Made by a program: the position numbers and the translations under genes | In this document: positions 40,906-55,773 of the stretch, one piece after another | Layout: each line of letters opens with the position of its first letter | Numbering within the stretch: position 1 is the stretch's first letter | DNA from: Spirochaetae bacterium HGW-Spirochaetae-1 | GTDB lineage: Bacteria; Spirochaetota; UBA4802; UBA5550 | Reading direction: 5' to 3' | DNA: 64,000 nt | Assembly: GCA_002839375.1 (NCBI GenBank) | Contig: PGXY01000007.1 | Location: 310,001-374,000, forward strand | The notes under the pieces: model-generated | The model's database searches: none | What the model saw: the letters and a program-made list of their open reading frames with translations, nothing else | What the model was told of the DNA's origin: nothing

Positions 40906-41169
40906 TTACTCGTAGTGAGTCCACATCCGGATTATCTTGACAATCTTTTCATCATCTAAAACCTGATAGACAAGACGATGCTGTATATTTATTCTCCGGG
41001 AATAAGCCCCTGACAGGTCGCCGGTAAGTTTCTCAAATGAAGGGGGATATCGGTAAGGGTCTTCAGTAAGGATATCCAATAATTCCTGAGCTTTCTCTTT
41101 CAATCCGGATTTACCAAGCTTTTTTGCGTCGGCCCGGGCCTGACTGGTAAACACCAGTTTATACTTCAC
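40906..41169 (-). CDS. yoeB: YoeB-family toxin (mRNA interferase)
   Basis: 87 residues. RelE-fold: PSFEKLTGDLSGAYSRRINI carries the Glu and Arg positions, and the tail WTHYE carries the His and Tyr of the YoeB active site. It overlaps the antitoxin gene by 4 bases. Confidence 0.93.
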   Translation of the reverse strand: MKYKLVFTSQARADAKKLGKSGLKEKAQELLDILTEDPYRYPPSFEKLTGDLSGAYSRRINIQHRLVYQVLDDEKIVKIIRMWTHYE

Positions 41170-41408
41170 CAGTCAAGATCCCCGGTGCACTCTGAAACAG
41201 GGGTTTTTAACCCTTTCATTATAGACTCCCTCATACCCGGGATGGATATCAAAAAAAGTGTTTCCTGAATGGCATTCCAGTCAGCTTCCGAAATCAACAC
41301 TGCGCTTGTTCTCTTGCCGGTTATATGAATCGGTTCATGGGAAGCGTTTGCTTCATCGATTAAATGATACAAGCTGTCACGGGCTTTTGTGGCATTTATT
41401 GTTTTCAT
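41166..41408 (-). CDS. yefM: YefM/Phd-family antitoxin
   Basis: 80 residues. The N-terminal DNA-binding Phd fold is KTINATKARDSLYHLIDEAN, HITGKRTSAVLISEADW; the C-terminal tail would neutralise YoeB. GAGAGG stands 5 bases before the ATG. Confidence 0.93.
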   Translation of the reverse strand: MKTINATKARDSLYHLIDEANASHEPIHITGKRTSAVLISEADWNAIQETLFLISIPGMRESIMKGLKTPVSECTGDLDW

Positions 41409-42024: not shown

Positions 42025-42912
42025 TTGAAAGGAATCATCCTTGCCGGAGGTAAAGGGACACGGCTTTATCCCATAACATTAACGGCATGCAAACAGCTTC
42101 TCCCCATCTATGATAAACCCATGATTTATTATCCCCTGTCCACCCTGATGCTGGCGGGTATACGTGACATCCTGATTATATCCAATCCTGAGGACTTGCC
42201 TATACTTAAAAAAATTCTGGGAAACGGCAGCAGCCTGGGAATAAGCCTCACCTACAGGGAACAGGCCAGGCCGCGAGGCATACCTGAAGCCTTTATTATA
42301 GGCGAAGATTTTATTGCCGATGAACCGGTGTGCCTTATACTGGGCGACAATATTTTCTTCGGCATGGGGCTGCCGGAACTGCTGACCAGGGCAGCCGATA
42401 ATTTGACGGGCGCGACGGTATTCTCTTATTATGTAAATGACCCTGAACGCTATGGTGTTCTTGAGTATGATAAAAAATATAAGATCAAATCCATTAAAGA
42501 AAAACCTGATAAGCCCCTGTCTAATTACGCCATAACCGGCCTTTATTTTTTCGACAACAACGTTATCTCCATTGCAAAGATTCTGAAGCCCTCCCGGCGG
42601 CACGAGACTGAAATTACCGATGTATTAAAATATTACTTGAAAAATAAATCCCTTAAGGCCACAGTAATGGGGCGTGGTTTTGCCTGGCTGGATACGGGGA
42701 CACATGACGCCATGATAGAGGCTTCACAGTATGTCAGGACTATCGAGCACAGACAAGGACTTAAAATAGCCTGTATAGAGGAAGTAGCCTACCGCATGGG
42801 GTATATCGATAAAAATGATCTCATAAAGCTGGCTTCAAAAATAAAAAATTCATCGTATGGTAAATATTTATTGAGAATTATCGAGCAGGATAACCTGATT
42901 AGGGGAAAATAA
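42025..42912 (+). CDS. rmlA: Glucose-1-phosphate thymidylyltransferase
   Basis: 295 residues. [11 protein letters not shown] at the N-terminus, then ILGDNIFFG and [12 protein letters not shown]. Makes dTDP-glucose. TTG start with AAAGGAGA 7 bases upstream. RmlB, C and D are not in the window. Confidence 0.95.
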
Positions 42913-42993
42913 CAAAGTACCACATCACAGTGATTGCAAACGAAATTTTATGAAATTCCAAACCCCTTATAACGATTGAACATTAAAACCATC

Positions 42994-43698
42994 ATGGATC
43001 AAAAGAAAGTAGCAATACTGCAATCCAATTATATCCCCTGGAAGGGTTATTTTGATCTCATCAACATGGTGGATGAGTTCATACTTTATGATGATGTGCA
43101 GTATACCAAAAATGATTGGAGAAACCGCAACAGAATAAAAACTGTTCAGGGTGTGCAGTGGCTCAGCATTCCCGTATTTAAAGAAAGCCTTTCACAAAAA
43201 ATTAAGGACACAAAAATAATACAACAGGATTGGAATAAAAAACACTGGAAGACGATAAAAATAAATTATGCAAAGGCGCAATATTTTAAAGATTATTCCG
43301 ACAATTTTGAAAATGCATACATGACATGCACATATAAAAACCTCAGCGCAATTAATTATTCATTCATAAAGGCCATCAACAACATCCTGGGAATAACCAC
43401 AAAAATATCTTTTTCCAGTGAATATTCATTTAAAGGTGATAAGACAGAAAAAATAATCTCAATTTTAAAAGAAGCGAAAGCAACAGAATATCTCTCAGGA
43501 CCGGCAGCACGCGATTATATTGATGAAAATTTATTTCAGCAGGAAGGAATAACGCTTGCATGGATGAATTATTCCGGTTACAGGGAATACACACAGCTTT
43601 ATCCCCCTTTTGAACATGCGGTGAGTGTTATTGATTTGATTTTTAATGAAGGGCCGAAGGCTAATAGGTATCTAAAAAGTTTTAAGGAAGTTATATGA
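42994..43698 (+). CDS. WbqC-family protein
   Basis: About 234 residues. KKVAILQSNYIPWKGYFDLI, DEFILYDDVQYTKNDWRNRN and YLSGPAARDYIDENLF match WbqC, common in O-antigen and glycan clusters and probably an acyl or amide transferase. The ATG at 42994 fits the family N-terminus; a TTG at 42976 is also open. It overlaps the GT2 gene by 4 bases. Confidence 0.88.
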   Translation: MDQKKVAILQSNYIPWKGYFDLINMVDEFILYDDVQYTKNDWRNRNRIKTVQGVQWLSIPVFKESLSQKIKDTKIIQQDWNKKHWKTIKINYAKAQYFKDYSDNFENAYMTCTYKNLSAINYSFIKAINNILGITTKISFSSEYSFKGDKTEKIISILKEAKATEYLSGPAARDYIDENLFQQEGITLAWMNYSGYREYTQLYPPFEHAVSVIDLIFNEGPKANRYLKSFKEVI

Positions 43699-44612
43699 AA
43701 CTCTCAATTGTTACGACTATGTATTATTCGGAACCCTACCTAAAAGATTTTCATACCAGGGTCAAGGCATCAGCGGAAGCAATCACAAAAAGCTACGAGA
43801 TCATTTTTGTTGATGACGGCTCACCGGATAATTCGCTACAGACAGTCATGGCACTTAAAAAAAAGAATGATAAAAAAATTAAAATAATTGAACTCTCCAG
43901 AAATTTCGGACACCATAAAGCTATGATGACCGGTTTGTCACATGCGAAAGGAGACTATGTTTTTCTTATTGATTCGGACCTTGAAGAAGAACCTGAACTG
44001 CTGGAGATATTCTGGAAGGAAATAAATGAAGACACGACATTGGATGTTATATATGGGGTACAAAAATTCCGTAAGGGCTACTTTTTAGAAAAGACATTCG
44101 GATATCTTTTTTATTCACTCTTTAACTACTTCTCAGATTATAAGCTTACGAGAAATCTGGTAGTAGCTCGTTTAATGAAAAAACAGTATGTCAAGTCTCT
44201 TTCTCAATATAACGAAGAGCACCCTCTTTTTGCCGGTTTATGTGTCCTGGCCGGTTATAACCAGAAAGAATATTACATAACCAAAGGACACAAAAAGCAG
44301 ACGAGTTATTCATTTCGAAAAAAGTTATCTCTCGTTATTAATTCTATAACATCATTCAGTGCAAAACCGCTTGTATCTATATTTTATCTTGGGCTGATCA
44401 TTCTTCTAATTTCGACTTTGTTTATTATTCGAATGCTTTATCAGAAAATTTTCCTTGGTGCTTCTATCGGATGGACCTCTATTGTAATTTCAATCTGGTT
44501 TTTTGGCGGACTGGTTATCTTCTGTCTTGGAATCCTTGGCATTTATCTCGCAAAAATATATGAACAGTCCAAACACCGTCCCTATACTGTAATAAAAAAT
44601 TTTTATAAATGA
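43695..44612 (+). CDS. GT2 glycosyltransferase with two C-terminal membrane helices
   Basis: 305 residues. GT-A domain with FVDDGSPDNS and IDSDLEEEPEL (DxD-like), then two C-terminal transmembrane helices near 235-290. The shape fits polyprenyl-phosphate sugar transferases such as ArnC/DPM1. Acceptor and sugar unknown. Confidence 0.9.
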   Translation: MKLSIVTTMYYSEPYLKDFHTRVKASAEAITKSYEIIFVDDGSPDNSLQTVMALKKKNDKKIKIIELSRNFGHHKAMMTGLSHAKGDYVFLIDSDLEEEPELLEIFWKEINEDTTLDVIYGVQKFRKGYFLEKTFGYLFYSLFNYFSDYKLTRNLVVARLMKKQYVKSLSQYNEEHPLFAGLCVLAGYNQKEYYITKGHKKQTSYSFRKKLSLVINSITSFSAKPLVSIFYLGLIILLISTLFIIRMLYQKIFLGASIGWTSIVISIWFFGGLVIFCLGILGIYLAKIYEQSKHRPYTVIKNFYK

Positions 44613-44630
44613 TAGCAGAACCTGGAAGCT

Positions 44631-45806
44631 TCACATTAATGAAGTAAATGGAATATGAAAATCCTTTAATTTTTCCATTATTGCGTATTTATATGCCGGT
44701 CTTGTGCAGAGCAATACATGCAGTTTGTCATTTGAAGCGGCAGTTTCCAGATTTATCACCTCTTTATTTAAATAATTTTCTCCTTTCTTTATTTCGTCAA
44801 TAATAAATATTACATCATTAAATCGTCCTGAATTCATCAGTAAAATAGCACTATACATACCCGCACCAAACAACGCTAAATTACCCCCATTCACTTTTTC
44901 AAGCTCTTCCCGGAATCCAGACAAAATACCATCCCACCATTTTTGATGAAAGGAGTATATATCACCAGTACTCCTGATAATATCTTCAGAAAATGTTGTA
45001 GAATTTTTGCTTCCAGGGACTGATACGCATCGACATATATAATGATAGCTTGAAGCAAGATTTCTTTTATATATTATTTCATAACCAACAACCTTTAAAT
45101 AATCATCCATTACACTCTTTTTATACATAAAGGAATGATCCCATATATAAGGTGTACACTCCGATTCCTCAAGAACCATAAATTCCAAACTGAGCAGAGT
45201 TCCGATATCTGAACACTCCCGAATTTTGAACAATTCAGGGAGCACGGGACTCCTGTTAAGCAATCCGTGAGCGATAATCACATCAAACTTTACGTCGGAA
45301 AAATAAGATGCTTTAAAAAAATCGTTAATAAAGATTATATTAGTATTTAATTCAATGTTTTGAATACTGTCCATCGATGGATCTATTCCATAACAATTCC
45401 ATCCCGGAAAATGTTCACTAAAATTTTTTATCAATTCTCCCTTACCACAAGCAATTTCCAGCATATTCCCCTGTTTTTGTTGAAAAATACTAAAATTAGA
45501 AAAAAGATTGTTTAGAATATACTCATGTTTATTGAATACTTGGTTGTTTACAACGATAAAATGATTCTGTACTTTCTCCGATAAAGAGTATTCTTTGTGA
45601 TAAAAATCATTTAATCTTTTTTCAGGGAAAAAATGCACCTCGATACACGCACAACGTAAACACAGTGTCCTTATCGCTTCTGCTTCACTTATTACTTTTG
45701 CATCTGATGTTAGAATTTGCTCATTTCTAGAGTTAATTGACTTCAACACCGTAAGGTCAGTATGGTTGCAGTTTGAACATTTAATATTTTTCAATGATGA
45801 AAGCAT
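44631..45806 (-). CDS. Three-part SAM methyltransferase (C-methyltransferase type)
   Basis: About 391 residues: an N-terminal zinc-like part (CSNCNHTDL plus CLRCACIE), a class I fold (MLEIACGKGELIKNF, WNCYGIDPS) and a C-terminal NAD-like fold (LALFGAGMYSAILLMN). This resembles sugar C-methyltransferases. GGGAG lies 7 bases before the ATG at 45806. Last gene of the leftward cassette. Confidence 0.78.
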   Translation of the reverse strand: MLSSLKNIKCSNCNHTDLTVLKSINSRNEQILTSDAKVISEAEAIRTLCLRCACIEVHFFPEKRLNDFYHKEYSLSEKVQNHFIVVNNQVFNKHEYILNNLFSNFSIFQQKQGNMLEIACGKGELIKNFSEHFPGWNCYGIDPSMDSIQNIELNTNIIFINDFFKASYFSDVKFDVIIAHGLLNRSPVLPELFKIRECSDIGTLLSLEFMVLEESECTPYIWDHSFMYKKSVMDDYLKVVGYEIIYKRNLASSYHYICRCVSVPGSKNSTTFSEDIIRSTGDIYSFHQKWWDGILSGFREELEKVNGGNLALFGAGMYSAILLMNSGRFNDVIFIIDEIKKGENYLNKEVINLETAASNDKLHVLLCTRPAYKYAIMEKLKDFHIPFTSLM

Positions 45807-45834
45807 CGGCATTCTCCCGCATTACTACAGAGTT

Positions 45835-46632
45835 TTATTCACTTACACGTCCGCAACCAATAAGCGTCAAACCCAGATTTGTATGATAGAACAGTTTCTG
45901 AAAATTAACTACGGGAAACATTGTATACCTGTTCAATAACAATTTCACCCATGCCGGGAAGAGTGTCTTATAAGGAACATTTTTTAGACCGCTGTTTTTT
46001 GTTTTCTCCATCATATCAAAAGCATTCATTTCTTCGTAAAGGCTTCTCCGGGTCATAAGATTACCTAAATTAAACAGGATATTAGAAACAGGAAATCCGA
46101 CGGAATTAATTATTATATCTTTCAAACAAACTTCTTCCATAACTCTGAAAAGATCCTTCCTGTCATATCTCCTATAGTGACCATATACTTCATCCTCAAT
46201 ACCCCATTTATCAACACGTCCCGGCACGGCGATAATGATATAACCATTATTTCTCGCCAACATTTTCAGTCGATCAAGAAACAGTAAATCATCTTCCAAA
46301 TGTTCCATCACCAGCATGCTAAATACCAGGTCTGCTTCGACACCATGGCTACCTGTCATCACATCGGCTTCGATAATTGAATACACCCCTCTATCGATAT
46401 ACTCCTGCATGTTTTTTTTCAGGATTTCAATCATGGCTTGAGAAAAATCAATACCATATCCTTTAATCGATTTATTGCATAATCTGGCAGAAAGGTGACC
46501 TTCTCCGGGACCGACTTCGATAAAGGAGTGAGGACAAATTTTCCCAATCAATTGGAAAAATGTTTCATTCAGACACCATGTACCTGGCGGATCAATCTGC
46601 AGCATCTTTTTTTGTTTTATGTCAGTTCCCAC
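45835..46632 (-). CDS. Class I SAM methyltransferase
   Basis: 265 residues. FIEVGPGEGHLSARL is motif I, GIDFS motif II and SMLVMEHLEDDLLFL motif IV-like. It overlaps the end of the ATP-grasp gene by 16 bases. Confidence 0.85.
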   Translation of the reverse strand: MGTDIKQKKMLQIDPPGTWCLNETFFQLIGKICPHSFIEVGPGEGHLSARLCNKSIKGYGIDFSQAMIEILKKNMQEYIDRGVYSIIEADVMTGSHGVEADLVFSMLVMEHLEDDLLFLDRLKMLARNNGYIIIAVPGRVDKWGIEDEVYGHYRRYDRKDLFRVMEEVCLKDIIINSVGFPVSNILFNLGNLMTRRSLYEEMNAFDMMEKTKNSGLKNVPYKTLFPAWVKLLLNRYTMFPVVNFQKLFYHTNLGLTLIGCGRVSE

Positions 46633-48284
46633 AACAACTCCCGCAGCGATCCGATTTTTCTATACGATGGTCTTCCAAGTTTTAGATAATTTTGTTCAGA
46701 AAAATTAAAAAAAGTCCCATCACGCTGTATCCAGTACTTAAGCCGAAACCCGGCATCAGCCGCTCCGGCAATATCCCTAAAAAGATTATCTCCGACCATA
46801 GCAAGATTGGCAGCATCAATGCACATTTTACCAGCAATATTTAAAAAAGCTCCTTTATCCGGTTTTTCTTTACCGCATTCACGCGTAAAAACAACGGCAT
46901 CAAATAAAGATTCAAGCCCGGATACACGAAGTTTCTGTTTCTGTGAATCAGGTGGATTATCAGTTAGTAAAGCGAGCTTATAGCCTCTCGTTTTCAGTTC
47001 AACAAGCGTCAGTTCAGCATCTTTGTAAAGGCAAGTATCGACGGGTTCAATTCTGCGATATGTATCGATAAATATATCTCTTGAACTTTGTTCAAGTGAA
47101 AGATAGTCACATACGGCGTCTATGGTTTTACTCCTGTTACCCTCCTCAAGCATCCATAAAACCAGGGATAAAAAATCTTCTCGGGGAGGCAGAATATGTG
47201 AATGTTTTTCCCAGAGAATTTCAAATTTATTCATAATCCACTTTTTTTGATCCAGCAATGTGTCATCAAGATCGAAGACAACACCCTTGATATTCCCTGC
47301 AGGTTCTCTGAAATAATACATCTCTTCAAGATATCGCACCATGATCATGCTTTTTCTATCATTTAAGTGTACCGATGAACCAAACTTTAAAAATTTTCCA
47401 TCAATGGATGAGCAAAAGAAAAGAGGCAGGTTAATTGCGACACCATAAGTAAAGACCATCGAAGTTCCCACTCGGGGATTGATATCCGAAATGTAAACAT
47501 AATCATCAGTTTTCAAAATTTGAAAATTGAAAAGACCAATTGCGCCACGAGACACCAGCTTTAAAATTAAATGATTTGCCAGATTTTGCAGGTCCTCATC
47601 AAAAACAGACTCGGAGATAATCGCAAATCCCCCCGATGTCCGGTTCCGTCTTCTGATGACAGGATCTGACGCTATGGTTTGACTATTAACTGCAAAATCT
47701 ATTGAATACTCTAAAAAATTTTGAAGCAATGGCTGAAAAATATAATCCTTTTTCAGTTTATCAATACTGTAATTAATCAAATCACTTTCATGATGTATTT
47801 CAATAAAGCCTTTTCCTCCAAAACCAGATAAAGGCTTCCCGATAACAGGCAATCTTTCTACATTATCAATATCAATCTCAGGTATGAACGGCAATCCTTC
47901 ATCCATGAGAAATTGTTTAAGCAATCGTTTATCCTGCAATGTTCCAAGCAGAGCAGAAGACGACACGGCAACATGAATATTTTTCGATTCAAAATATCTT
48001 TTTTGCAAAGATAAAAGGCGCAGTTCATACTCCATGGATGGGAAGATTATGTTTATTGATTCCTTTTCACAGATATCCTGAAGAAAATCAATGAAAACAT
48101 CCTCATCCTTAATTAATGGGGCCTGATAAAATACATCAACAAAATATCTGCTGGTATTTTCTTCATAACAATCAATGAGAATTGTTCTGATAAATTCGGA
48201 TTTAATCAAGCCCTTGATGATAGCAAGACCTGAAAAACCACCTCCTGATACGACTAATGCATTGATCATGTCAGTAACGATCAC
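46617..48284 (-). CDS. ATP-grasp / HAD hydrolase fusion protein
   Basis: 555 residues. Residues about 110-315 are a carbamoyl-phosphate-synthase-like ATP-grasp: PVIGKPLSGFGGKGFIEI and DINPRVGTSM. Residues 334-530 are a HAD phosphatase with all four motifs: FDLDDT (337-342), LLTDN (439-443), KEKPD (472-476), MVGDN (496-500). It may ligate an amino or carboxyl group and also remove a phosphate. Start and radical SAM stop overlap as ATGA. Confidence 0.85.
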   Translation of the reverse strand: MIVTDMINALVVSGGGFSGLAIIKGLIKSEFIRTILIDCYEENTSRYFVDVFYQAPLIKDEDVFIDFLQDICEKESINIIFPSMEYELRLLSLQKRYFESKNIHVAVSSSALLGTLQDKRLLKQFLMDEGLPFIPEIDIDNVERLPVIGKPLSGFGGKGFIEIHHESDLINYSIDKLKKDYIFQPLLQNFLEYSIDFAVNSQTIASDPVIRRRNRTSGGFAIISESVFDEDLQNLANHLILKLVSRGAIGLFNFQILKTDDYVYISDINPRVGTSMVFTYGVAINLPLFFCSSIDGKFLKFGSSVHLNDRKSMIMVRYLEEMYYFREPAGNIKGVVFDLDDTLLDQKKWIMNKFEILWEKHSHILPPREDFLSLVLWMLEEGNRSKTIDAVCDYLSLEQSSRDIFIDTYRRIEPVDTCLYKDAELTLVELKTRGYKLALLTDNPPDSQKQKLRVSGLESLFDAVVFTRECGKEKPDKGAFLNIAGKMCIDAANLAMVGDNLFRDIAGAADAGFRLKYWIQRDGTFFNFSEQNYLKLGRPSYRKIGSLRELLWELT

Positions 48285-49207
48285 CGGGCTTCAGGTTCAA
48301 AAAAAAGAGAACGCCCTGTTTGCCAATCACGGCAGTTTTTGCACAAATCATGGCTAAAATCTCCTTTCCAGTGCTGTTCCCTTCTTTTTGCAAGCTCCCC
48401 GTTCCACACTTCCTTAATCGACATGTTTTTAATATTCCCTGGACTGTATTCACCTTCGAAATCGGCATCGCTGCAATGTGCAAAATTGCCGTTCCAGTGT
48501 ATTGCACAATTACGTATGAGCATTGGGCATGGGAAAGTCCGAGCCGCAGGAGGAAGATTAAGTGAACGATGCGTGTCTACAGCAGTGCCCCAACCGATTT
48601 TAGGACGCACTTTAAGTTTGGCCCCGAGATTCAGCCAGAATTGTTTGAAGTCCTCGAACTCTTCCTCATTTTCATCCATTAAGATATATTGAAGGTACAA
48701 CCGAGGCTGGCTTAATTTCCGCTCTTTAATAACATCCAGCAGATACTTGATATTTTCAACGACTGTGGTTAAATCCCCTCCCACCCTGATTTTATCATAG
48801 GTCTCTTCTCTATATGAATCTATACCGATTATTATTTCGCTTACACCGGCCATAATCAGTTTTTCACACAAATCCGGTTTCATTAAAACTGCATTTGTGT
48901 TAAGATGTATATTTATTACACCGGCCTTTTTTGCATATAAAATCATTTCGATAAGTTTATCTCCCAGCAAAAGCGCTTCACCCATAATAGCAAGCCATAA
49001 CCGTGTATCCGGACTCTCACGTGCGATCTCATCAACAATTTTTTTAAAGGTATCAAAGGACATTTCTCCTTTGGCTCTTTTCAAGGTCTTTTGCGGACAC
49101 ATAGAACATTTCAGATTACAATAGGCCGTCGTTTCGACCAGGACTTCAACAGGAAAATCTGTTTTTTTCAAAGTTGGAATAATAGCATCGAATTGAGGTT
49201 CCCACAT
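48281..49207 (-). CDS. Radical SAM/SPASM-type protein
   Basis: 308 residues. Radical SAM cluster C30-NLK-C34-SM-C37, then IMGEALLLGDKLIEM. C-terminal cysteines (FPCPMLIRNC, FAHCSD, LCKNC) suggest SPASM auxiliary clusters. First gene of a leftward cassette with the ATP-grasp-HAD protein and two methyltransferases. Confidence 0.85.
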   Translation of the reverse strand: MWEPQFDAIIPTLKKTDFPVEVLVETTAYCNLKCSMCPQKTLKRAKGEMSFDTFKKIVDEIARESPDTRLWLAIMGEALLLGDKLIEMILYAKKAGVINIHLNTNAVLMKPDLCEKLIMAGVSEIIIGIDSYREETYDKIRVGGDLTTVVENIKYLLDVIKERKLSQPRLYLQYILMDENEEEFEDFKQFWLNLGAKLKVRPKIGWGTAVDTHRSLNLPPAARTFPCPMLIRNCAIHWNGNFAHCSDADFEGEYSPGNIKNMSIKEVWNGELAKRREQHWKGDFSHDLCKNCRDWQTGRSLFFEPEAR

Positions 49208-49464
49208 AGTACACCATCACTGTGAATTATTTAAATATTAAAAGAATGATTTAAAAAAATAAAAGTCAAGAATTATTCCATAGATAAAATAAATTTAAAC
49301 TCCATGGAATGGAAATTCAATTACGAGGATAATAATTTGTCGGCCATATCAAGAATACCTGAAAAATGATTTTATTATTTCAAGACATTTTTTCTCTTGA
49401 ATATTTCCACTAATATGTAAGTGTTTGCATTAAAGATACATATTTTAACACAGAAAATAAATCA

Positions 49465-49824
49465 ATGTCCCACATATATATTATAATATCCATCGCATGC
49501 GTGATAATCAGTCAGGTTTTATTAAAATGGCGCATGACAATACTTGGTCATTTGCCGACAACCATATCCGAAAAACTGATTTTCCTGATTACATCGCTTT
49601 TTGATCCCTATGTATTCATCTGCATAGTGTTGACCTTCATATCAGGCCTTTCGTGGATAGCCGCCATGACCAAATTCGAGCTGAGCTATGCTTTCCCTTT
49701 CACCAGTCTGTCCTATATTGCGATACTTGTTCTCTCATCATTTTTATTCCACGAACAGATGACCCTGTCAAAAATTTCCGGCCTGATATTCATTATTATA
49801 GGCATAATTATAAGCAGCAGATAA
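49465..49824 (+). CDS. SMR/EamA-type small membrane transporter
   Basis: 119 residues, four transmembrane helices, with ELSYAFPFTSLSYIAILVLS as the second-half signature. ArnE/ArnF-like flippases for lipid-linked sugars are of this size. Weak ribosome binding site. Confidence 0.8.
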   Translation: MSHIYIIISIACVIISQVLLKWRMTILGHLPTTISEKLIFLITSLFDPYVFICIVLTFISGLSWIAAMTKFELSYAFPFTSLSYIAILVLSSFLFHEQMTLSKISGLIFIIIGIIISSR

Positions 49825-49844
49825 TAAAGCGACGTGAGATAAAC

Positions 49845-50693
49845 ATGAGCAAGCCGATTCCGGAAAACATTCTTCAATGTCCAGCGTGCGGAAGTGATCA
49901 ATTGCTGATGAAAGAAAATTCCATTGAATGCCACGCGTGCAAAATGATTTATCTGAAAAACGGGAAAAGGTTCTATTTTGTTGAAAAGAATCCTGCAATA
50001 CATGACACTCTGGATGGCATCAAACATGCCTTAAAACCCTTCGCTAAAATATATAATTTTATGATATGGCTGGCAAGTCCTGTTTTCAGTTTTGCACATC
50101 ATAAACACTTTATACAAAAATATATCGCGCATAACGACATCGTCGCCATAAACCTGGGCAGCGGCAACAGCAATATCTCCGATAACATCTCCAACATTGA
50201 CCTCTTCCCCTATGAAAACGTCGATCTCACCTGCGACATGCTCAACATCCCCTTCAGTGACAACTCAGTGGACTGCGTCATAACCCTGGCCGCTCTCGAG
50301 CATGTTCCCCACCCTGAAAAGGCCGTACAGGACATGCACCGCATCCTGAAACCGGGCGGTATGGTATGCTGTTATATGCCTTTCATTGTCGGCTTCCACG
50401 CAAGCCCCGGAGACTATACCCGTCTGACTACTGAAGGATTGAAAACCTTATTCGAAAATTTTGATCTCATCGACATGAAAGTAGGCGGCGGCCCCACCAG
50501 CGGCCTGCTCTGGATACTGCAGGAGTGGCTGGCCCTCGTCCTTTCGTTTGGCTCGAAAAAACTGCATTTGATCCTTTATATTATCATCATGCTCCTGACC
50601 TTTCCTCTGAAATTTTTGGATATAATTCTAATCCATCATCCCATGGCGCATAACATCGCCAGCGGCTTCTTTATAACAGCCAGGAAAAAATAA
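49845..50693 (+). CDS. Class I methyltransferase with N-terminal zinc ribbon
   Basis: 282 residues. CPACGSDQL and CHACKMIYL form an N-terminal zinc ribbon; AINLGSGNSNISDNISNIDL is motif I and LAALEHVPHPEKAV motif IV. A hydrophobic C-terminal stretch may touch the membrane. The start at 49845 is chosen; the longer open frame overlaps the SMR gene. Confidence 0.82.
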   Translation: MSKPIPENILQCPACGSDQLLMKENSIECHACKMIYLKNGKRFYFVEKNPAIHDTLDGIKHALKPFAKIYNFMIWLASPVFSFAHHKHFIQKYIAHNDIVAINLGSGNSNISDNISNIDLFPYENVDLTCDMLNIPFSDNSVDCVITLAALEHVPHPEKAVQDMHRILKPGGMVCCYMPFIVGFHASPGDYTRLTTEGLKTLFENFDLIDMKVGGGPTSGLLWILQEWLALVLSFGSKKLHLILYIIIMLLTFPLKFLDIILIHHPMAHNIASGFFITARKK

Positions 50694-50695
50694 CG

Positions 50696-51559
50696 ATGGT
50701 AGTCTGTCCACGCTGCTATATTCAAATACAAACCGCTGGTGATATATACCGATGCGGCGAATGCGGATATACGGCAAAAACGATGAATTCCATAATAATC
50801 TTTGAGCCGGATATGGCCCATGATAATCGGGACTATCCCCAGGATGGCCTGCATTCCCTTTATAAAATTGAGAACAGCCACTTCTGGTTCCTGAACCGAA
50901 AGGAATATATTGCCGACCTCTTTGACCGATATATATCGAAAAACAATAAAATCATAGAGGTGGGTGCCGGAACCGGAAATGTTTCCAACATGCTCCGGAG
51001 CCGGGGATATTCTATAGCGGCAGGAGAGCTGCACATCGAAGGTCTGCGTATGGCCCGCGGGCACGGCCTGTGTGAATTATACCAGTTCGATATTTTCAAT
51101 CCGCCATTCCGGGAGCACTTTGACACCGTTTGCGCCTTCGACGTAATAGAGCATTTTGATAATGATACCGGGGCACTGAAAAAAATCCACGGGATGCTGA
51201 AAAATGACGGCCAGGTAATCATAACCGTCCCGGCCCACCGGTGGCTCTGGAACTCCGAAGACGTACTGGCCCGTCACAAACGACGATACGACCTGAAAAG
51301 GATACGCTCCATTTTCACTGCATCGGGATTCGAGATCATTGAAACACGGCATTTTTTCACTTTCATAATTCCCCTGCTCTTCATTCGAAGATTCATCAAC
51401 AGAGACATGGTAGAAGATCGACAGCATGAAATAAAAATAAACCCGGTGATAAACGGAATATTATATTATATAACAAAACTGGAGTTTTTCCTCACCCGGC
51501 GGCTGAAGCCGCGCCTCGGCGGCAGCATTTCCGTTGTAGCCATGAAGGTAAAAAGTTAA
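50696..51559 (+). CDS. Class I methyltransferase with N-terminal zinc ribbon
   Basis: 287 residues. CPRCYIQIQ and CGECGY-like (CGEC) pairs, then IIEVGAGTGNVSNML and FDVIEHFDNDTGALKKIH. It starts 2 bases after the previous stop. Probably paired with the preceding methyltransferase in glycan decoration. Confidence 0.84.
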   Translation: MVVCPRCYIQIQTAGDIYRCGECGYTAKTMNSIIIFEPDMAHDNRDYPQDGLHSLYKIENSHFWFLNRKEYIADLFDRYISKNNKIIEVGAGTGNVSNMLRSRGYSIAAGELHIEGLRMARGHGLCELYQFDIFNPPFREHFDTVCAFDVIEHFDNDTGALKKIHGMLKNDGQVIITVPAHRWLWNSEDVLARHKRRYDLKRIRSIFTASGFEIIETRHFFTFIIPLLFIRRFINRDMVEDRQHEIKINPVINGILYYITKLEFFLTRRLKPRLGGSISVVAMKVKS

Positions 51560-51636
51560 ATTGCTTGAAATTTATTCTTATAATTAATATCCTTGGTATA
51601 CTTATCCACATCACCGGAATAAATTAAGAGGCTGGC

Positions 51637-51942
51637 ATGTATTTAAATACTACGGAAAAAGAAATGATTAAAGAAGACATTATCTCCTCACTTAAGACCA
51701 ATAAAGAAGTGAAAAAAATAATCGTCTTCGGATCATTTTTTAAAACTGAAAATCCCGGGGATATAGATGTAGCTTTATTTGAAGATAGTGATGATGACTA
51801 CCTGACCCTCGCGTTGAAATACAGGAAACAGCTGAGAAAAATATCAAAAATATTGCCTATTGATATAATTCCGTTAAAGGCAGGCAAAGAATCATCCTTT
51901 TTAGATGAAATCAACCATGGTACTGTCATCTATGAAAGGTGA
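51637..51942 (+). CDS. MNT-family nucleotidyltransferase (antitoxin-like)
   Basis: 101 residues. VFGSFFKTENPGDIDVALFE is the GS...DxD nucleotidyltransferase signature. Partner of the HEPN gene; in MntA-HepT systems it adds nucleotides to the toxin. AAGAGG is 5 bases before the ATG. Confidence 0.88.
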   Translation: MYLNTTEKEMIKEDIISSLKTNKEVKKIIVFGSFFKTENPGDIDVALFEDSDDDYLTLALKYRKQLRKISKILPIDIIPLKAGKESSFLDEINHGTVIYER

Positions 51943-52324
51943 AACCGCCTCCTGGCTCGCTTATGCGCAAGATAATGTGGATGCAGCTGAAATCCTTATC
52001 ACAAGCGAGCTATATAATCCGGCATTGCAGAATATTCAACAGGTTATTGAAAAATATCTAAAGGCATTATTACTGGATACTGGCACCAGGCTTAAGAGGA
52101 CTCATAGTATAAATGAATTGGTCTCTCTATTGAAGGACAACAGTATAATGGTTAAAATAGATGACGATGAAATTGACTTGATTGACTCAATATACCTTCC
52201 TTCGAAATACCCCGGAGGAAGCGCTCTCCCGGATTTTATTCCCGATAAAATAATCTGTAATAAATGTTTTGATATATTAATGAAAGTTAAACAATCCGTA
52301 TCTGACTACCTGAATGCCGCATGA
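51932..52324 (+). CDS. HEPN-domain protein (toxin-like)
   Basis: 130 residues from the chosen ATG at 51932. NPALQNIQQVIEKYLKALLL is the HEPN helix; RLKRTH gives the Rx4H RNase motif. The ATG at 51905 would add 9 residues. Overlaps the MNT gene. MNT-HEPN pairs act as toxin-antitoxin or abortive-infection modules. Confidence 0.86.
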   Translation: MKGETASWLAYAQDNVDAAEILITSELYNPALQNIQQVIEKYLKALLLDTGTRLKRTHSINELVSLLKDNSIMVKIDDDEIDLIDSIYLPSKYPGGSALPDFIPDKIICNKCFDILMKVKQSVSDYLNAA

Positions 52325-52343
52325 AACATAAAACGAAACATCT

Positions 52344-52375
52344 CTTCACGATCTTCGCGCCCTTCCTGTGATATC
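52344..52375. repeat. 32-base interspersed repeat, copy B
   Basis: 29 of 32 bases match copy A at 41486-41517. It lies 19 bases after the HEPN stop and before the aminotransferase, followed by a T-run. Confidence 0.7.
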
Positions 52376-52419
52376 TTTTTTTGATAACAGGAAAGTATTT
52401 TAAAACTATTGGAGCAGCC

Positions 52420-53547
52420 ATGATACCCTTCAACAAACCCTGTGTGACCGGAAAGGAAGAACAATACCTGAAAAAAGTCATTGAAAACGGCATCTTCGCA
52501 GGCGACAACGAATTCACTAAAAAATGCCATGCATGGTTCGACAATGTATTCCCCGGATCACGAAGCCTCATGACTCCCTCGGCCACCCATGCCCTGGACA
52601 TGTCGTGCATCCTCATCGACCTGAGGCCCGGCGACGAGGTGATAGTTCCCTCCTTCACCTTCCCGGCCACGGCCACCTGCGCCACCATGCGCGGCGCAAC
52701 ACCGGTCTTTGTAGACATACGGCCCGATACTTTAAACATAAACGAAAATCTCATTGAAGAGGCTATAACGGGCCGCACCAGGGCCATCCTGCCGGTGCAC
52801 TACGCGGGAGTTGGCTGTGAGATGGAGGCCATCATGGACATTGCCCGTCGCCACAATCTGCCGATCATCGAGGACTCGGCCCAGGCGATCCTCTGTTCAT
52901 ACAAGGGCAAACCCCTGGGAACCTTTGGGCTCTTCGGCTGCTTCAGCTTTCATGAGACCAAGAACCTTCAGTGCGGCGAAGGGGGCGCCATGATCATTAA
53001 TGATCCCGCATACTTTGAACGGGCCGAAATTCTCAGGGAAAAGGGAACAAACCGCTCTAAGTTCTGGCGCGGCGAGATAGACAAGTATTCCTGGGTGGAT
53101 ACGGGATCATCCTATATCCCTTCAGAACTCACCTCGGCCTTTTTATACGCGCAGCTTGAACAGGCTGAAACGATCATGAAGGACCGGTTGAAAAGCTGGG
53201 ACCTGTATTATAAAGGGCTTACTCCCCTTGAAGATAAGGGACACATCGAACTGCCTCGTATCCCGGAACACTGCAAGCACAACGGTCATATTTTTTATAT
53301 TAAGGTAAGAGATCTTAAAGAGCGAGACGCGATTATTAAATTTCTCCGTGAAAAGGGCATATACAGTGTGTTTCACTATGTGCCTCTGCACAGCTCCCAG
53401 GCCGGTCGTAAATATGGGCGCATGCACGGCGAGGACTGCTACACCACGAAGGAAAGCGACCGGCTTGTGCGGCTGCCCATGTATTATCAATTAACAAATG
53501 AAGAAATACATAAAGTCATTGATAATGTGCAATCATTTTTCGCTTAA
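52420..53547 (+). CDS. rffA: dTDP-4-amino-4,6-dideoxygalactose transaminase (RffA/WecE)
   Basis: 375 residues, DegT/DnrJ/EryC1 fold. IPFNKPCVTGKEEQYL and SFHETKN (PLP Lys) match RffA/WecE. Turns dTDP-4-keto-6-deoxyglucose into dTDP-Fuc4N. GGAG lies 5 bases before the ATG. It overlaps the convergent GT-C gene by 15 bases. Confidence 0.92.
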   Translation: MIPFNKPCVTGKEEQYLKKVIENGIFAGDNEFTKKCHAWFDNVFPGSRSLMTPSATHALDMSCILIDLRPGDEVIVPSFTFPATATCATMRGATPVFVDIRPDTLNINENLIEEAITGRTRAILPVHYAGVGCEMEAIMDIARRHNLPIIEDSAQAILCSYKGKPLGTFGLFGCFSFHETKNLQCGEGGAMIINDPAYFERAEILREKGTNRSKFWRGEIDKYSWVDTGSSYIPSELTSAFLYAQLEQAETIMKDRLKSWDLYYKGLTPLEDKGHIELPRIPEHCKHNGHIFYIKVRDLKERDAIIKFLREKGIYSVFHYVPLHSSQAGRKYGRMHGEDCYTTKESDRLVRLPMYYQLTNEEIHKVIDNVQSFFA

Positions 53548-55773
53548 CTTTTTAAAAGGATCACCGATAACAGCCGGTTCGGGCGGATATATAAGGGGCG
53601 GTTTGCCGGTATATGTTCCCTTCAAAACACCCTGCACTATCATTCGCGCCCCGGCTGCGCTCCTTACGCCTTCAGTTTTCTCCATAAAAAATTCAAGAGC
53701 CTTATACCATTTTGTGTTTTTGATTGAATTAACATCTCCTGTCTTCATCTCCGACAAAGGAGCCGGGGAAAATACGCTGTTGCCGGCATTAAAAATTGAA
53801 CCAGGCAACGATGCGCCGGTTCCGGGCTCTGTTTCTGTATTTTTCCAAATCCAATAGTTGATAATGCCATAGTTATACGCACCGTACAGGTCATCGGATT
53901 CCTTCTCCAGGGCCTTATTGACATATTCAAGCGCTTTGCGGTCAATATTTCCAGTCCATGATTCAACGGCTTTATGGTAATACATAGATATAAGCAGATA
54001 TTTATCCACAAAAACCGTATCGGATACGTTTTCAAATATCCCGATTGCGTTGGAGTAATCACGGTTATAATAGGCCACAACACCTTTTATATAGTCGCCC
54101 ATCTTCTGGACGACTTCCACCTGATCCGCCAGTCCAAACCGCCGACTCATACTGGTAAATATTATTTGCACACCCTCCCAGTCCCGAATGCTCAGAGCAA
54201 AAGCGCATGCCTCTGCCGCGCTATGAAGGTTCTTTATGTTTCCCAATGATGATCCCCGGACAATACTGTTTTGAGGCAGCGGCACTTCCTTCTTTACGAA
54301 TACCGGCCCTGAAGGGCCGTAGTAGGCCAGTTTCCAATCCGCAGATTCGTAAAAATAGGTAATGAGTACCTGATTCATATATTGAAGATTAATTACATCA
54401 AAGGGATACTTTTTAACAAAGGATTCAATGCTTTTACCGCTATCGAAATCTAAAAATTCCCTGTACATATCCTTAAAAGGAAAATAACGCGGATCGATCA
54501 TTATTTTAACATCCGGCCCCAGCCTCCAGAGCATATAACCGCCGTTATTATATACATTGCCTATTTTATAAGCTGAATAATTCTGTTTTATAAATTCCGT
54601 TTCATCCATGGAGTTAATATAGCCATTTCCCAGTCCCAGCCACTGTTCCCTCGGAGGGGTAAACAGGGCATTGTAAACGGTCCAGCGGACCTGATCGAGA
54701 CTGATCAGCACTACGATGATGATGTAAACCCACACGACAGCCTTGCGTTTAATTTTCGCAATCAAAGCGTCATCGGCCAGCATATACAGGGTATTGAATG
54801 CAAAGACAGGAGCCCAGAAAAAAGTGGTCCGTAAAAACTTGAGATACAGCGCGATATAAAACAAGTTTGTTAAAATAATAGCAAAATCATACTTTTTAGT
54901 TTTCTTAACGGCAATAAAAGCATACAATGTCACCAAAAGCGAGATGATAATATAAAGTGTTGGGTTTGTAATTCCAAAAGTGGCGCTGTATGCGGATATT
55001 CTCTCAAAATCCCCGGATACCGCATCATACTGAAACGTCATTTGGAATAACTGTACAGGATATTTCCACCCATAAGGCGTTATAAATAAAGCTATTCCCG
55101 AGAGAATGAACGCTATTAAAAGATGTTTCCGTACCTCTGCTTCGAGGGCCTCTGTTGGATTAAACCGAGAATTTATAATATCTCCGAGAAGGACAAGCCC
55201 GAGGAAAGGAAAACCGAATATAAAAGCGCCATGAGTGTTGACCCACAGGAGCATGATTACGGGAAACAGGTATACAGCTTTATAATATTTCTTCCCCTCA
55301 ACCCTGATAAACCACCACAGAAAGACCGTTATAAACATGAATAAAAAAGAAATTATCTCCGGCTTAATCAATGTTGCTCCAATTCCTGCAATGAGCAGAG
55401 AAACAAGCCCGGTCAATCCTGAAAGGGGATGAAAAGCTACCCCTGTTTTGATGGCTGCCCAGACAAATAAAAACAGGGAAAGCAGCGGGATTATATAGCG
55501 CAACGCATACAGGGCATTGACCCCCCCCCATTGATATAATTTATAGAAACATATCTCGGGCAGCCATGCACAATAAATAATATCGTTTGTCGCCTTTGTC
55601 CATGTGTATATGGTATGATCCGGTATCAATGTTTTATTTTCGAGAAGATATTTGCCATAGGACATGTGCCACCATGTATCGCCATCACCAATGGGGCGTG
55701 TGTACATGAAAAAAATAACGATAACGCAGAGTAGTATTGAAAAAACAAACACGCCCTTCTTAAGCAGTTCCAT
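53533..55773 (-). CDS. Polytopic GT-C-like membrane protein with TPR-like tail
   Basis: 746 residues. Ten or so transmembrane helices in residues 1-370, a loop GDGDTWWHMSYGKYLLEN after helix 1 (the DTWWH motif of a widespread uncharacterised family), NVYNNGGYMLWRLGPDVKIM after the membrane part, then helical repeats near 520-690. Likely lipid-linked glycan transfer at the outer face; unproven. Confidence 0.75.
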   Translation of the reverse strand: MELLKKGVFVFSILLCVIVIFFMYTRPIGDGDTWWHMSYGKYLLENKTLIPDHTIYTWTKATNDIIYCAWLPEICFYKLYQWGGVNALYALRYIIPLLSLFLFVWAAIKTGVAFHPLSGLTGLVSLLIAGIGATLIKPEIISFLFMFITVFLWWFIRVEGKKYYKAVYLFPVIMLLWVNTHGAFIFGFPFLGLVLLGDIINSRFNPTEALEAEVRKHLLIAFILSGIALFITPYGWKYPVQLFQMTFQYDAVSGDFERISAYSATFGITNPTLYIIISLLVTLYAFIAVKKTKKYDFAIILTNLFYIALYLKFLRTTFFWAPVFAFNTLYMLADDALIAKIKRKAVVWVYIIIVVLISLDQVRWTVYNALFTPPREQWLGLGNGYINSMDETEFIKQNYSAYKIGNVYNNGGYMLWRLGPDVKIMIDPRYFPFKDMYREFLDFDSGKSIESFVKKYPFDVINLQYMNQVLITYFYESADWKLAYYGPSGPVFVKKEVPLPQNSIVRGSSLGNIKNLHSAAEACAFALSIRDWEGVQIIFTSMSRRFGLADQVEVVQKMGDYIKGVVAYYNRDYSNAIGIFENVSDTVFVDKYLLISMYYHKAVESWTGNIDRKALEYVNKALEKESDDLYGAYNYGIINYWIWKNTETEPGTGASLPGSIFNAGNSVFSPAPLSEMKTGDVNSIKNTKWYKALEFFMEKTEGVRSAAGARMIVQGVLKGTYTGKPPLIYPPEPAVIGDPFKKLSEK

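Follow-up and report, generated by a model that had tools for sequence, protein, structure and literature searches.

The window analysed here, a 64,000-nucleotide stretch of the genome of Spirochaetae bacterium HGW-Spirochaetae-1 (assembly GCA_002839375.1, contig PGXY01000007.1, positions 310,001 to 374,000), carries on its minus strand, at 44631-49207, a cassette of four intact open reading frames (ORFs) for a radical S-adenosylmethionine (SAM) protein, a fusion of an ATP-grasp ligase with a HAD hydrolase, and two methyltransferases, MT1 and MT2. Judged by its domains, the fusion is a joined version of a widespread gene pair. The cassette interrupts a plus-strand set of genes for RmlA, WbqC, a GT2 glycosyltransferase, an ArnF-like subunit and a WecE transaminase (Table 1), and we lean slightly towards the reading that it N-acylates a 4-amino-4,6-dideoxysugar derived from these surrounding genes, with methylation; the substrates, the order of the steps and the roles of the methyltransferases and the radical SAM enzyme are those that we infer. 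The cassette is novel as a combination and is assembled from known parts.

A preliminary description of this DNA, drawn from its letters without database searches, had listed four leftward genes of which the first three overlap, and the ORF coordinates bear this out, with overlaps of 4 bases between the radical SAM and fusion genes and 16 bases between the fusion and MT1 genes. Its placing of the fourth gene 28 bases further on corresponds to the second ATG of the MT2 ORF (45806), which is preceded by GGGAG; from the first ATG (45812; ORF 44631-45812) the gap to MT1 is 22 bases. The enzyme classes that it had named were recovered as Pfam domains above curated cut-offs, and, given four long open frames with such matches, the cassette is not a product of chance.

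Table 1. Features of the cassette and of the surrounding amino-sugar region, in window coordinates
Feature	Coordinates	Strand	Remarks
Radical SAM protein	48281..49207	-	308 aa; Pfam Radical_SAM + SPASM
ATP-grasp-HAD fusion	46617..48284	-	555 aa; Pfam PylC-like_N, ATPgrasp_Ter, ATP-grasp_3, HAD_2/Hydrolase in a single frame
Ligase half, PylC-like_N + ATP-grasp	47298..48284	-	D267 where aligned relatives carry E
HAD half, TIGR02253 (CTE7)-like	46617..47297	-	motifs intact
MT1, class I SAM methyltransferase	45835..46632	-	265 aa; Pfam methyltransferase domain
MT2, class I methyltransferase	44631..45806	-	391 aa; N-terminal Cys pairs, methyltransferase core, C-terminal GxG domain
RmlA, glucose-1-phosphate thymidylyltransferase	42025..42912	+	TIGR01207 441 bits, cut-off 360.65
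WbqC family	42976..43698	+	PF08889 E 2.8e-80
GT2 glycosyltransferase resembling PgfS/ArnC	43695..44612	+	below equivalog cut-offs
ArnF-like flippase subunit	49465..49824	+	EamA above cut-off; ArnF model 49.4 bits, below cut-off 99
MT3 methyltransferase	49842..50693	+	Pfam
MT4 methyltransferase	50696..51559	+	Pfam; MT1 relative
WecE/RffA-type dTDP-4-amino-4,6-dideoxyhexose transaminase	52381..53547	+	NF008687 588 bits (cut-off 375); TIGR02379 573 (cut-off 434.85)

Plasmid matches to the window fusion revealed ATP-grasp and HAD as separate neighbours in Haloarcula, Ensifer, Priestia, Acetoanaerobium and Phocaeicola, while a search of genome contigs with the fusion by itself found no relative. 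A scan with four plasmid ATP-grasps confirmed 517 relatives, the best 80 of which were kept for locus counts; these are a biased sample, since they resemble the Phocaeicola protein closely and come for the most part from Bacteroidota, and the counts are lower bounds, since contig ends cut many loci. The HAD gene was adjacent (within 150 bases) in 73 of the 80 loci, fused in three (L033, L036 and L040), about 1 kb away in two, and absent from two, one of these at a contig end. Homologues of a phosphoglycosyl transferase (PGT) were present in 70 loci, of DegT in 55 and of a PglF-like protein in 40, and the ligase relatives are generally set in amino-sugar, legionaminic/pseudaminic-type and glycosylation loci. 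The domain set PylC-like_N, ATPgrasp_Ter, ATP-grasp_3 and CTE7-like HAD is common to the window fusion and the two-gene pairs of Bacteroidota and other glycan loci, as is the order of the two parts; the window protein differs in being fused, in having a ligase only 20-29% identical to its aligned relatives, and in the company of a radical SAM protein and two methyltransferases. Two traits of the ATP-grasp + phosphatase glycan pair are found in the window, a fused TIGR02253-like HAD and nearby amino-sugar genes. The earlier impression that the fusion is rare therefore holds for the fusion itself (three of 80 loci, plus three in the phylum) and fails for the association of the domains, which is widespread. 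All HAD motifs had been described as intact, and indeed FDLDDT (residue 337), LLTDN (439), EKPDK (473) and GDN (498) are present; the best model score of this half, 92.6 bits, lies below the TIGR02253 family cut-off of 169.75, as do those of the other pair HADs tested.

The phosphatase-like partner of the ligase appears to have been exchanged. A 27-row alignment was used, a 50-row joint alignment of ligase and HAD having been dropped as poor (812 columns). The HAD tree contained a 100/100 split between a CTE7-like group, comprising the window protein and the canonical pairs, and the HADs of three fusions from the window's phylum and of the phylum genome G047, whose best models are phosphoglycolate-phosphatase/PpaX-like; the ligase has therefore paired with HADs of two lineages. 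Separate fusion events probably took place in the window, in the phylum genus and in the Opitutales/Prevotellaceae set, as far as the sequences indicate. Furthermore, the ligase partner is a calcineurin-type metallophosphoesterase in Smac51 and a PHP protein in Halobaculum and in S. meliloti, where it is called histidinol-phosphatase. The HAD, metallophosphoesterase and PHP families all include phosphatases, and it is because all partner kinds do so that a phosphatase step is proposed, which is the main argument for it; we read the pair as a ligase cooperating with a phosphatase.

Several other arrangements of these genes were encountered. A Prevotellaceae metagenome-assembled genome encodes a three-part fusion of ATP-grasp, HAD and PglD-like acetyltransferase (L040:7935-10286), and in L024 a PglD-like domain is fused ahead of the ATP-grasp, both PglD labels having been assigned by eye. 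On a plasmid of a cockroach-gut deltaproteobacterium (L096:12949-15835), genes for an ATP-grasp, a metallophosphoesterase and a three-part methyltransferase overlap consecutively, and in Halobaculum (L133:3291-5640) those for a PIG-L deacetylase, an ATP-grasp and a PHP protein overlap, an order that reads as a possible course from freeing of an amine through acylation to dephosphorylation. One haloarchaeal ATP-grasp of this kind is matched by 2435 plasmid records, mainly enterobacterial; those sampled have 57-61% query coverage and ~30% identity, and perhaps represent the Ter-linked gene for which we take PF15632 to be named.

In the window's own phylum, a ligase profile run over 392 genomes gave, at E 1e-25 or better, matches in 17 besides the window's own; larger stretches were examined for nine of them and ~1.5 kb or less per side for the remaining eight. 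ATP-grasp-HAD fusions of 521-531 aa occur in three species of one genus, beside FdtA/FdtC/FdtB-like genes, and in one genome the HAD adjoins the ligase in a locus of legionaminic-acid type, these labels having been read by eye off the translations and not via a family search. The row in G047 is ligase, epimerase, MT1-like methyltransferase, HAD and DegT, and this was the only genome besides the window's own to be recovered at 1e-20 with the whole fusion as query; the radical SAM protein recovered only G013 at 1e-40. In a test for an empty site, none of the 19 remaining genomes of the family had a counterpart of the window WbqC at 1e-30.

Amino-sugar genes, which the preliminary description had named as neighbours worth seeking, are present: RmlA and WecE lie beside the cassette above their curated cut-offs, and RmlB, above its own, is located elsewhere in the genome, which therefore holds the genes for a dTDP-4-amino-4,6-dideoxysugar. 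In the pathway that we propose, RmlA, RmlB and WecE would yield a dTDP-linked 4-amino sugar, and the ATP-grasp half would convert a carboxylic acid to an acyl phosphate and then to an amide with the free amine. The HAD half would act as a phosphatase in one of two places: before ligation, releasing the acid from a phosphorylated form (glycerate from phosphoglycerate, for instance), or afterwards, removing a phosphate from the acyl group. Methylation of the sugar or the acyl group would fall to MT1 and MT2, the radical SAM enzyme would oxidise a hydroxyl on a sugar or polyol, and the GT2 and ArnF-like proteins would carry the sugar onto, then across, the membrane. This probable attachment and methylation of a small acid on a surface sugar would vary a known theme and not constitute a system of a new kind. 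Of the unusual sugar-linked amino acid or peptide-like decoration first envisaged, what survives is a methylated amino-sugar decoration, favoured by the adjoining RmlA and WecE and by relatives in glycan loci; the peptide part finds no precursor ORF. A more elaborate scheme, which we regard as rather unlikely, has the fusion acting as an N-acylase in two steps, first joining a phosphorylated hydroxy acid to a dTDP-4-amino sugar and then removing in cis the phosphate, the ligase's recognition handle, in which case the four partner kinds would reflect this shared step and the radical SAM enzyme would add a ketone or a second amine; we know of no case of radical chemistry giving either in a surface polysaccharide.

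The same region contains a nucleotidyltransferase/HEPN pair (51637-52324), a toxin-antitoxin pair (YoeB/ParE-like with Phd/YefM-like) where the glycan region begins on the left (40906-41408), and a predicted protein of 746 aa (53533-55773) for which neither Pfam nor NCBIfam gave a match within the limits applied and which, judged by eye, could be a membrane glycosyltransferase.

The ligase half has the PylC-like_N and ATP-grasp domains found in an N. dentiae relative, and alignment with relatives indicated that K150-P151, E192, R213, Q255, N269 and R271 are kept. In an AlphaFold2 model of the fusion (mean pLDDT 79, pTM 0.58, with residues 294-326 poor), the nearest fold in the Protein Data Bank (PDB) to the predicted ligase half is 2pn1, which is annotated as a carbamoylphosphate synthase large subunit and, unlike the window fusion, is without a HAD; we know of no assay for 2pn1.

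The radical SAM protein has its CxxxCxxC motif at C30/C34/C37 and a four-cysteine auxiliary site at C227, C245, C289 and C292. Only five PDB matches were obtained at 0.01, tetraether synthase being first, followed by two entries for BtrN (4m7s/4m7t), which we take to be an S-adenosylmethionine (AdoMet)-dependent dehydrogenase. BtrN likewise has the CxxxCxxC motif and a single four-cysteine auxiliary site, with the spacing C169-x17-C187-x44-C232-x2-C235, compared to C227-x17-C245-x43-C289-x2-C292 in the window protein; the match is weak (1.5e-6 for the whole sequence, per-domain i-E 0.26 and 0.062), and a single-sequence model (pLDDT 46.7) was too poor for a fold search. The cysteine pattern makes BtrN-like, AdoMet-dependent dehydrogenation the most likely activity. 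Relatives sharing ~28-30% identity have as neighbours DegT, WbqC and methyltransferase genes in Solidesulfovibrio, DegT and AsnB in Smac51, and, in Brachyspira, a three-part methyltransferase together with an ATP-grasp of a different type (ATP-grasp_4); by their gene content these loci are partial echoes and not copies of the cassette.

MT1 is 28% identical to MT4 of the window (E 1.7e-12) and 25% identical to the G047 methyltransferase (E 1.2e-9), and in plasmids neither MT1 nor MT2 found a counterpart at 1e-10. MT2 has weak family scores; in alignment it has in common with the Brachyspira and Smac51 proteins both the cysteine pairs at the N terminus and a GxG domain at the C terminus, the identity being of limited extent (33% over 82 residues with the Smac51 protein). 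A certain assignment of MT2 as a sugar C-methyltransferase, of the type for which we take TylC3/TcaB9 to be family names, was rejected, since the Pfam zinc-binding and C-terminal C-methyltransferase end domains had no match in MT2 at E 0.5; the C-terminal one is weak in the Brachyspira and Smac51 relatives (E 0.029 and 0.18).

The nearest experimental precedents are Neisseria PglB2 and Shewanella SfmD/SfmE. PglB2 is described in PMC11130364 as an ATP grasp/phosphoglycosyltransferase responsible for glyceramido-acetamido-trideoxyhexose, and the figure legends of PMC6959607 include a HAD hydrolase among the N. oralis pgl genes and place this sugar on an N. oralis glycopeptide. PglB2 is likewise an ATP-grasp within an amino-sugar glycosylation pathway, and the N. 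dentiae locus (L082) has the order PGT, ATP-grasp, HAD, DegT and PglF-like, with ATP-grasp Pfam domains as in the window. However, PglB2 is fused to a PGT and the window ligase to a HAD, the N. meningitidis protein is likened by description only, and the window sugar genes are of the dTDP/WecE type whereas the PglB2 system is of the UDP/bacillosamine type. In Shewanella oneidensis, as reported in PMC3765264, SfmD is a 395-aa methyltransferase whose gene shares an operon with the ATP-grasp gene sfmE, deletion of sfmD or sfmE shifted the flagellin mass, and the flagellin glycan carries extra methyl groups; SfmE is of the ATP-grasp_4 type, with neither a HAD fusion nor a radical SAM protein in the account given there, and is likened to the window protein by description and not by sequence. 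A methylated glycerate on an amino sugar does exist, in that Campylobacter pseudaminic acid bears 2,3-di-O-methylglycerate, but this is an analogy only, because the gene named there, Cj1295, with an aminopeptidase-like domain, is of another kind (PMC3068675). The literature searched, outside which most subscription papers lie, contained no publication joining ATP-grasp with bacillosamine, and for ATP-grasp with O-antigen and aminotransferase only matches that were unrelated by title and start of abstract.

Several observations weigh against the N-acylation of a surrounding amino sugar. The preliminary description had regarded linkage of the genes elsewhere as a test; the complete cassette was not met in any other genome or locus examined, homologues of the radical SAM protein, MT1 and MT2 were found in 0 of the 80 ATP-grasp loci, and only partial combinations recur. 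The orientation of the cassette is opposite to that of the flanking genes including WecE, which leaves co-expression with WecE a supposition, and no PGT was present among the neighbours scanned (42025-55773), compared to 70 of the 80 relatives. The ligase itself is divergent: besides its low identity to the aligned relatives, it lies on a long branch without a settled position in the ligase tree, and its ExN motif reads D267-x-N269, a change of Glu to Asp that the enzyme may tolerate. Finally, no HAD was found in 12 of the 17 phylum genomes (eight of them viewed only within ~1.5 kb), and in three Haloferax loci the related ligase is without a phosphatase partner next door.

The opposite transcription also fits an alternative to which we give a modest chance, that the cassette makes a free or lipid-linked modified hydroxy or amino acid, with the ligase joining two acids or using another amine. 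Consistent with this, PylC and amino-acid ligases stand beside 2pn1 among the PDB relatives found with the ligase profile, and NCBIfam labels the ligase only in general terms ('carbamoyl phosphate synthase-like'); nevertheless, its HAD-paired relatives are mainly beside DegT, PglF and PGT genes, and RmlA and WecE stand on either side of the cassette. It is improbable that the cassette came by horizontal transfer and is now in decay, with one or more of its enzymes impaired. Its GC content is low (0.33-0.41, compared to 0.45 for the window), it was not found in the relatives searched at the thresholds used, and the altered ExN motif and the scores of MT2 point the same way, but none of the four frames is interrupted, the genes are tightly packed, the HAD and radical SAM motifs are intact, and the neighbouring WbqC and GT2 genes are similarly AT-rich (GC 0.34-0.35). 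Maturation of a ribosomal peptide by the radical SAM/SPASM and ATP-grasp enzymes, both classes being known there (PMC8939145) and weak matches to peptide-maturase models all falling well below cut-off, is highly improbable and was rejected, since the precursor that the preliminary description had suggested looking for did not emerge from a scan of the 257-base upstream gap that took in ORFs of 20 aa and more (an unassigned ORF of 27 aa being the longest in or just past it), and since the ligase carries PylC-like_N and HAD domains and has its relatives in glycan loci.

For the acylation of amino sugars, the coupling of ligase and phosphatase is the notable general point, since it offers a testable role for a common gene pair, an ATP-grasp with a phosphatase of varying fold, for which no assay was found in the literature searched. 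The recurrent fusion and the replacement of partners point to a single shared chemical step in sugar N-acylation, and settling the role of the pair would aid the sequence-based prediction of acyl groups on capsules, O-antigens and glycoproteins.

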